A stretch of DNA of 34,349 nucleotides. Source: Armatimonadota bacterium. Its GTDB lineage: Bacteria > Armatimonadota > Fimbriimonadia > Fimbriimonadales > Fimbriimonadaceae. This document shows, piece by piece, positions 25,496 to 27,607 of the stretch (positions within the stretch are counted from its first letter, which is position 1; the number at the start of each line of letters is the position of its first letter). The notes beneath the pieces were generated by a model. That model saw only the letters and a list, made by a program, of their open reading frames with translations, ran no database searches and was not told where the DNA came from. The position numbers and the translations under genes are program-made. The DNA lies in assembly GCA_029781035.1 (NCBI GenBank), contig JAKOXK010000059.1:1-34349 (forward strand), given 5' to 3'.

Positions 25496-25501
25496 CCGAC
25501 A

Positions 25502-25507
25502 AGTATA
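25502..25507 (-). promoter_or_regulatory. -10 element, leaderless start of purF
   Basis: On the minus strand TATACT, six bases (TGTCGG), then ATG at 25495. A palindrome ACACC-CC-GGTGT (25513-25524) lies just upstream and may be an operator. Confidence 0.6.
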
Positions 25508-25512
25508 ATCGC

Positions 25513-25524
25513 ACACCCCGGTGT
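25513..25524. promoter_or_regulatory. short palindrome between the purF and TMEM14 starts
   Basis: ACACC (25513-25517), two bases, GGTGT (25520-25524). It lies between the purF -10 box and where a -35 would be. Small, so it could be chance. Confidence 0.25.
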
Positions 25525-25549
25525 CCTGTATGACGAGCCGGGCCGCTGG

Positions 25550-25555
25550 TACCCT
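25550..25555 (+). promoter_or_regulatory. -10 element, leaderless start of the TMEM14-like gene
   Basis: TACCCT, six bases (CGCCAC), then ATG at 25562. Fits TANNNT. Confidence 0.45.
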
Positions 25556-25561
25556 CGCCAC

Positions 25562-25918
25562 ATGCTCTACCGCGTCGTGATAGGCCTATACGGACTCGTG
25601 AACATTGCTGGCGGCCTCATGGCGTTCCTCATGCCCAACGTGCGGAGCATCTGGTCCCTCATTGTTGGTGGGATTTCAGGAATCCTGTTCCTCGTTTTCG
25701 CAGCCATCGGCGGCAACAAACCAGGACTCGCGTTTCGCGGAGCCGCGGGACTGGCCTTTCTCCTGGCCCTGTTCTGGGTCTACCGGATCACCGAGATCGT
25801 CCGTGAGGGCAAGAGCCAGATGATGGCCGTCGGCAACTTGGCTCTCGCCATGGCCGTTGTCCTCTTCCTGGGTTTGGGACATTTGGTCTCCATGAGAAAG
25901 AAGACGGGCGGTCATTGA
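25562..25918 (+). CDS. small multi-pass membrane protein, TMEM14/UPF0136-like
   Basis: 118 residues with about four membrane helices ('VIGLYGLVNIAGGLMAFLM', 'SLIVGGISGILFLVFAAIG', 'LAFRGAAGLAFLLALFWVY' and 'GNLALAMAVVLFLGLGHLV') and Gly-rich packing typical of TMEM14. In bacteria the family has no assigned function. It is divergent from purF (66 bp between starts) and overlaps the end of ygfZ by 7 bp. The first ATG at 25562 is preceded by TACCCT six bases upstream; the open frame further upstream is not membrane-like and antisense to purF. Confidence 0.7.
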   Translation: MLYRVVIGLYGLVNIAGGLMAFLMPNVRSIWSLIVGGISGILFLVFAAIGGNKPGLAFRGAAGLAFLLALFWVYRITEIVREGKSQMMAVGNLALAMAVVLFLGLGHLVSMRKKTGGH

Positions 25919-26781
25919 TTCAACGGGAAGGCGCAAGCTACCACTTCCTCGGTTCCGATCAGGAGCCGTGATCCTGGTGCCGCATATTCGTTTTTCGCCA
26001 TCGCCCCGGCAAGATGCCCGAAGCGTGGGCTTGTGGCCGACCTGGTGACAGTTCCCACAGCTCGACCCTCAAGAGAGGTCACCGCCGATCCTGGCGTAGC
26101 CAGAGACCCGCATTTGAGCACAAACCACGATTTGTTCGTGTGGCCCCGACTGTGAATTCTTTGAAGGACTTCTTGGCCTTGGTAGCATCCCTTGTCGTAG
26201 GCCACATGGGAACGCTCAAAGCCTAGCCCGAGCTCTGGCGGGAGGGTGCGATCGTCGGAGTCCACGCCGACGAGCGGAATGCCCAACTCCAAACTGGCGC
26301 ACAGGAACGACTCAAAGGACGCCACTGAAACTTCCGTGGGGCAGCTTCCTGAAAGGTCAAGCCCCCCTTCGTAGAGCCTGTTCGCCGGCAACGCGCCCTC
26401 GACTTCGAGGCTCCCGACGTCAGGCCCTTGAATGGACCAGAGGCCTGACGACAACAGCTCCAGGCCAACGTCTTCCATGATCACGAAGTCGTCCGCACGG
26501 GCCTTCAGAACTTCGCCCGGCTCACAGACAACCCAAGTCACTTCGCCTCGGTCGTAGATTCGGCACTCCGCCTGTAGCTGTCCTGTCGGGGACACGAAGC
26601 AACCCAAAAGGGGCGATCCTGGGCCGAGCTTCCTGACGTCGCAGGTCGCTTGGCCCTGGAGCCACTCGAGGCGATCCACCCCCGACAAGCACCATAGCGT
26701 GGCCCGAGGCAGCCAAACTGCGGCGTAACGGGTCGTCAACTCGGCGTATCCACTCAGTTCGTCCACGGCAGACAAAACCAT
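25912..26781 (-). CDS. ygfZ: YgfZ/GcvT folate-binding family protein
   Basis: 289 residues from the ATG at 26781. The hallmark 'YDKGCYQGQEVLQRIHSRG' (C199) is the YgfZ signature, a K-G-C-Y-x-G-Q-E motif. The fold resembles aminomethyltransferase GcvT; YgfZ/IBA57-type proteins aid Fe-S cluster assembly or repair in a folate-dependent manner. Mrp/ApbC and several Fe-S enzymes (IspG, PurF) occur in this window, so a link is plausible but unproven. The start is 22 bp from the start of the divergent gene at 26804. TAGCAT ends 5 bp before the ATG. Confidence 0.88.
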   Translation of the reverse strand: MVLSAVDELSGYAELTTRYAAVWLPRATLWCLSGVDRLEWLQGQATCDVRKLGPGSPLLGCFVSPTGQLQAECRIYDRGEVTWVVCEPGEVLKARADDFVIMEDVGLELLSSGLWSIQGPDVGSLEVEGALPANRLYEGGLDLSGSCPTEVSVASFESFLCASLELGIPLVGVDSDDRTLPPELGLGFERSHVAYDKGCYQGQEVLQRIHSRGHTNKSWFVLKCGSLATPGSAVTSLEGRAVGTVTRSATSPRFGHLAGAMAKNEYAAPGSRLLIGTEEVVACAFPLNQ

Positions 26782-26786
26782 TCTGG

Positions 26787-26792
26787 ATGCTA
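26787..26792 (-). promoter_or_regulatory. -10 element, leaderless start of ygfZ
   Basis: On the minus strand TAGCAT, five bases (CCAGA), then ATG. It overlaps by two bases the plus-strand -10 box of the gene at 26804. Confidence 0.5.
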
Positions 26793-26796
26793 AAGT
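26791..26796 (+). promoter_or_regulatory. -10 element, leaderless start of the 26804 gene
   Basis: TAAAGT, seven bases (GCCAACC), then ATG at 26804. It overlaps the ygfZ -10 box at 26791-26792. Confidence 0.45.
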
Positions 26797-26803
26797 GCCA
26801 ACC

Positions 26804-27607
26804 ATGGGTCCGTTGCTGGCTATTGCTGCCTTTGGCCTTGCTGCCGGCTTTGGAGGTCGCGAGATCCATGTTTTCGAGCGGGCGGCGGCGAACGAGATTC
26901 GCGCGAACCTGAAGGGCGACTCGTCGGTAGTTTCGGTTTCCGTCATTCCGGACGGCCTGGGAGTCCTTTGGGGCGCCCTGGACCGAGCCACGATCTCAGC
27001 GGAACACTTCTCGGTCGAGGGTGTCCCTTTATTCGTGGACCCCGAACGATCAAAGGCTGGCCGTTGCGGCAACCTGACGATCGATCTACGAGACTTCCGC
27101 CTTCGCGGGCTTCGCGTGGACTCACTGCACGCGGAGATTCCAGCTTGCCGATACGACCGGGCTTTGGCTCTTCACGACAAGAAGTTCCGCCTCAGCCGGA
27201 GCGGTATTGGCCGAGGCACGGTCCGAGTCCTCGAACAGGATTTGGCGGCCTTCATCTTGCGCAAGTACCACGAGATCAAACGCGTCACCGTCAAGGTCGA
27301 TCGCGGTGTTGTCTGGGTCGAAGGTTTCGGTGAGTTCCTGATCGTCAAGTCGGACTTCGAAGTCATCGCCGATCTGACTCCCGTCAACGGCACGCAGTTA
27401 GCCCTTACGAACGCCAAAGTCTGGTTTGATTGGCGGCGGGCTGACAGTTTTGCGACCGATGCCCTTCTCAAGACACTCAACCCAGTCGTGGATCTTGACC
27501 GCGACCTCGGGTTGCTCGGTTCGATCCAAGTCGACAAGATCAAGCTCGAGGGCGGAGTGCTTGAAGCTTCGGGCAAGACCCAAATTCCGATCAAGCCCCG
27601 GTCGTGA
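26804..27607 (+). CDS. DUF2993/LmeA-like exported protein
   Basis: 267 residues from the ATG at 26804; the GTG at 26795 adds three. An N-terminal signal or membrane segment (about 1-18) is followed by 'HVFERAAANEIRANLKGDSSV', 'LGVLWGALDRATISAEHF', 'DFRLRGLRVDSLHAEI' and 'LTNAKVWFDW', with the alternating repeats of the DUF2993 family, whose mycobacterial member LmeA binds phospholipid and helps lipoarabinomannan assembly. This points to an envelope lipid- or glycan-related role. It is a family-level match by eye. The glycosyltransferase gene follows, convergent, 4 bp away. Confidence 0.65.
   Translation: MGPLLAIAAFGLAAGFGGREIHVFERAAANEIRANLKGDSSVVSVSVIPDGLGVLWGALDRATISAEHFSVEGVPLFVDPERSKAGRCGNLTIDLRDFRLRGLRVDSLHAEIPACRYDRALALHDKKFRLSRSGIGRGTVRVLEQDLAAFILRKYHEIKRVTVKVDRGVVWVEGFGEFLIVKSDFEVIADLTPVNGTQLALTNAKVWFDWRRADSFATDALLKTLNPVVDLDRDLGLLGSIQVDKIKLEGGVLEASGKTQIPIKPRS

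Follow-up and report, generated by a model that had tools for sequence, protein, structure and literature searches.

A putative bidirectional promoter with a shared TA in the 22-bp gap between ygfZ and an LmeA-like gene of an Armatimonadota genome

Both bidirectional promoters, in which -10 elements overlap on the two strands, and leaderless genes preceded by a TANNNT box are established. The former are defined by opposite transcription starts 7-25 bp apart (Warman et al. 2021, as cited in the available parts of PMC12825309 and PMC10268837), with 18, 10 and 23 bp among the common start distances, and in E. coli 23 bp comes after 18 (PMC12825309, available part). According to the same part of that report, transcription in one direction had no effect on the other at any of the five E. 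coli bidirectional promoters tested, basal activity there being too low for competition, which appeared once one side was substantially activated. With reference to leaderless genes, the accessible portion of PMC3160421 relates phylogenetic distance to changes in initiation mode from one ortholog to another. A title and abstract-opening search found no paper combining leaderless and bidirectional promoters, and broader searches came no nearer, which, given the partial literature coverage, is weak evidence of absence; within the same partial coverage no paper on Fimbriimonas transcription start sites was found, and the sole match for leaderless and Armatimonadetes promoters concerned a mycobacterial chaperone.

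In this study, the window, that is the whole stretch of 34,349 nucleotides analysed, belongs to a 3.42-Mb draft genome. We observed that the start codons of the divergent ygfZ and LmeA-like genes are separated by 22 bp (in full, TCTGGATGCTAAAGTGCCAACC), exact to the base as in the original prediction, whose two candidate -10 boxes, with two bases in common, could also be confirmed in the sequence (Table 1). The gene names that it had given stood as well, since ygfZ scores above the TIGR03317 cut-off and the DUF2993-like assignment (LmeA, PF11209) is carried by 19 of 25 aligned family members, the window protein itself having no PF11209 match. The predicted fold of this protein (mean pLDDT 88) begins with a long N-terminal helix at residues 4-34, of low confidence to residue 16, and found no match in the PDB at E <= 0.001.

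Table 1. Features at the divergent ygfZ / LmeA-like start region (window positions).
Feature	Position	Strand	Basis
Gap between start codons, holding the proposed bidirectional promoter	26782..26803		sequence, 22 bp
ygfZ, CAF17-like Fe-S cluster protein	25912..26781	-	TIGR03317, 55.6 bits vs cut-off 49
LmeA/DUF2993-like gene, 267 aa	26804..27607	+	PF11209 in 19/25 aligned relatives
TAGCAT, candidate ygfZ -10 box	26787..26792	-	5 nt before ATG, leaderless-peak spacing, weak score
TAAAGT, candidate LmeA-like gene -10 box	26791..26796	+	7 nt before ATG, leaderless-peak spacing, weak score
Palindromic TA common to both boxes	26791..26792		T26791 and A26792 = -12/-11 of each box
TGC directly 5' of TAAAGT	26788..26790	+	read from sequence
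Further ATG in the ygfZ reading frame, overlapping that of the plus gene	26803..26805	-	read from sequence; judged an unlikely start

The two boxes form a combined element, ANNNTANNNT, reading ATGCTAAAGT here, which with its shared TA presents overlapping candidate -10 elements on opposite strands, as bidirectional promoters do (Warman et al. 2021). If each transcript begins at the A of its ATG, the predicted starts lie 23 bp apart, inside the range of 7-25 bp and equal to one of the common values in the available part of PMC12825309; by arithmetic, a shared TA also gives 23 bp if, in each box, the start follows the first T by 12 nt. Unlike the described bidirectional promoters, the starts at this locus are predicted from sequence, no -35 element accompanies them, and both products would be leaderless, so that the promoter would fill the whole gap between the starts. 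Compared with the leaderless TANNNT genes in the accessible portion of PMC3160421, the boxes likewise have their first T 11 and 13 nt ahead of the ATGs, a -35 is lacking and the host is of high GC, whereas two signals here overlap on opposite strands and this host group is not among the table entries in that portion. The original prediction had placed -35 regions inside the opposite coding sequences; no recognisable -35 boxes were found at this locus, the best TTGACA matches (4/6 on the plus and 2/6 on the minus strand) both being within random range.

During the analysis of the genome-wide signal, genes were called by a codon-score script blind to promoters in the window and the first 20 kb of contigs 1-31, and eight contigs reading N were dropped, leaving 24 sequences of 427,676 bases. 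Of the 301 genes sampled, 37 had a TANNNT ending 5-7 nt ahead of the start, as against about 4.5 on average for eight control triplets of positions farther from the gene; this gene count includes one target gene only, ygfZ having fallen just below the score cut-off after the all-N contigs were removed. The same test on genes of divergent pairs gave 19/106 against a background of 2.5. The peak is narrow and roughly eight-fold above background; its top falls on 6 and 7 nt, with 16 genes at either spacing, and six genes have 5 nt. The spacings of 5 and 7 nt at our locus fall within this enriched range, so that the leaderless geometry originally proposed for both boxes agrees with the genome-wide signal and, given the eight-fold enrichment, their position is meaningful. 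This signal resembles the account for high-GC bacteria given in the available part of PMC3160421. About one gene in eight of the genome has a leaderless-spaced TANNNT, usually as GTANNNT and with no -35 signal, and G precedes the TA in 62% of such boxes. Among 42 leaderless-spaced genes, no -35 signal was detected: TTGACA matches averaged 2.62, compared with 2.67-2.93 at shifted positions, and no column of the -35 region rose above the 99% null.

Our tentative reading, held at somewhat below an even chance, is that the gap is a minimal bidirectional promoter with a shared TA, in which both boxes are used and two leaderless mRNAs are made. The sigma-bearing RNA polymerase would bind the single palindromic TA in either orientation, using TAAAGT rightward and TAGCAT leftward, and would flip the -11 A of whichever strand is read as non-template, and transcription would begin on or directly beside the A of the start codon (26804 on the plus and 26781 on the minus strand). 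Going by established promoter geometry, the two bubbles would extend apart and abut rather than overlap. The original statement that both boxes cannot be melted at once is thus not supported, as the bubbles would barely touch; what would produce exclusion is that both orientations need the same TA for their sigma contact and cover a common footprint, rather than any need to melt the same bases. As the site would have room for one polymerase at a time, initiation in one direction would shut out the other for that event. With promoter activity at its ordinary weak level, the two genes would still be expressed side by side, and nothing in the sequence hints at strong activity, both boxes appearing weak and without a detectable -35. 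The claim that the two genes are mutually exclusive at initiation therefore goes too far: only exclusion per event is to be expected if both boxes are used, in line with the five E. coli promoters without competition at basal activity in the available part of PMC12825309.

With regard to box strength, both boxes rank 36th of 41 by score in a ranking that includes both target genes, and the plus box ranks 33rd of 37 in the 301-gene sample. The plus box scores 4.6 bits, while the median is 7.4 for other leaderless boxes and 4.8 for chance TANNNT inside genes; scores of 4-5.2 occur in 26% of chance boxes vs 6% of leaderless ones, being about five times commoner in chance. By our own arithmetic, spacing odds of about 6.6:1 for a divergent gene, multiplied by the score factor, leave each box slightly over even odds, and from these together with the non-independence of the boxes we judge the use of both to fall a little short of even.

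The first alternative, possible though rather doubtful, is that one box works and the other is a chance mirror image produced by the palindromic TA, its gene starting inside the opposite coding region or using another promoter type. A random genomic 22-mer holds both boxes in 0.15% of cases and one named box alone in 0.75%, and since the TA is palindromic, the opposite box arises by chance in about one in six 22-mers already holding the first. One-sided boxes are also observed in relatives, with a leaderless-spaced box for the LmeA-like gene only at 17 of 74 loci and for ygfZ only, at a GTG start, in G002 (LmeA-like protein 58% identical). The TGC in Table 1, which we take to be an extended -10 (TGn) match, favours the plus box alone. 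However, the two scores are alike and neither box stands out, and the nearest 100 nt on either side are free of further TANNNT: ygfZ has none in the 120 nt before it, and the plus gene's only other one in a 120-nt search is 103 nt away, whereas 91 of 122 divergent genes have a TANNNT at spacing 5-120.

The conservation of the arrangement bears on the second alternative, which we consider unlikely, namely that neither box is used, the transcripts being leadered and starting inside the opposite genes, and the overlap being coincidental. An LmeA-like protein match was present in 94 of 113 genomes of the order, and 74 loci were examined (34 first seen as divergent and 40 added); the 20 left unexamined comprise G012, G024, G028, G038 and 16 of family f2. 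The ygfZ and LmeA-like matches lie on different contigs in G024 and G012, and adjoin in G028, where they are too weak to align. The divergent pair was kept at all 74 loci, and the gap length varies widely across relatives, so this promoter is not what keeps the two genes together. A shared TA with both spacings of 5-7 was found at one locus out of 74, the window alone, rising to two with spacings of 5-9 and three with 5-12; the shared-TA box pair is thus not kept at orthologous loci. The original prediction had named boxes not conserved in close relatives despite a conserved gene order as the finding that would count against it, and this is largely what emerged.

Both boxes are absent in G003, G090 and G001, whose LmeA-like proteins are the most similar (69%, 65% and 63%). 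Other leaderless-spaced genes of the window keep their box in 7/10 comparisons with G001, G002, G003 or G007, and ygfZ and the LmeA-like gene do so in 1/8, these comparisons being few and non-independent. From the boxes missing at the closest loci and this lower retention, the promoter element looks young or fast-changing. The missing boxes in close relatives with a kept gene pair, together with scores typical of chance TANNNT, speak for the use of neither box. On the other hand, both boxes lie within the narrow leaderless peak, other TANNNT are lacking nearby, and neither ATG is preceded by a visible Shine-Dalgarno sequence. Moreover, as a change of initiation mode follows phylogenetic distance (PMC3160421, accessible portion), the absence of boxes at 58-69% identity does not disprove present use, and with the nearest ortholog only 69% identical in protein, non-conservation weighs on long-term keeping more than on present use. 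A contig scan for close relatives returned two loci, 69% and 49% identical; no relative above 85% identity was present in the collections searched, and the matching public records of relatives are Armatimonadetes and Fimbriimonadaceae MAGs.

A shared TA also lies between the starts in G040, which belongs to another family (spacings of 8 and 6 in a gap of 24), and in G007 (spacings of 9 and 12 in a gap of 31), giving 1/73 loci (5-9) and 2/73 (5-12) when the window is excluded. Shuffles reach at least one in 336/2000 and at least two in 95/2000, respectively, so this recurrence is at most suggestive. A whole-genome search for CAT-N5-7-ANNNTANNNT-N5-7-ATG returned five places, two of them true divergent gene pairs (this locus being one), while an AT-centred control layout gave seven places and no divergent pair; this counts in favour of the bidirectional reading. 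The second pair (L102, at G000:C58:90941-90968, with ORFs of 460 and 175 aa) resembles our locus in its shared TA between divergent ORFs, with spacings of 6 and 6, and differs in its genes, its lower plus box (3.7 bits) and its higher minus box (5.7 bits). Altogether 34 loci with the TA layout were read (five in this genome, 29 in relatives) and four passed the divergent-ORF-pair test, for which the gene-score table, built from the window's genome, is rough at the relatives' loci. A raw motif excess over a reversed-pattern control was discarded as evidence, as the AT-centred control was at least as frequent.

A third alternative, that ygfZ truly starts at the in-frame ATG at 26805 with TAGCAT inside its coding region, is very improbable even though the frame is open through the gap: the proteins of congeners start where ATG 26781 lies or slightly inside it, and the upstream ATG lacks both a Shine-Dalgarno sequence and a leaderless-spaced TANNNT. 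The sequence CCATGG (26802-26807), where the plus gene begins, holds an ATG on both strands, the minus one in frame with ygfZ.

The locus is best read as a compact case of a known promoter kind and not as a proven on/off switch, and by itself it establishes neither exclusion nor a switch. It illustrates the degree to which the space between divergent genes can be reduced in a leaderless-rich genome, where, without leader and -35, a single element of 10 bp can be enough for two start codons. As the two promoters would have two base pairs in common, it would be a clean test case for competition between opposed -10 boxes. The further idea that the shared TA is an allocation point, dividing initiation between two leaderless mRNAs, one for an Fe-S cluster protein and the other for a lipid-binding protein, whose expression would be anticorrelated when either side is activated, strikes us as very improbable.

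Two minor observations were also made. In G002 (L035, L062; G002:C44 near 15205), an ATC, with AAAGGAGG before it, stands in the LmeA-like frame in place of the ATG of the other species; this is either a draft-genome consensus error or an unusual start codon. In the window, the neighbouring divergent genes purF (minus) and a 118-aa ORF (plus), with a gap of 66 at 25496-25561, carry leaderless-spaced boxes on both sides that do not overlap, the only divergent pair so arranged among the 53 sampled.
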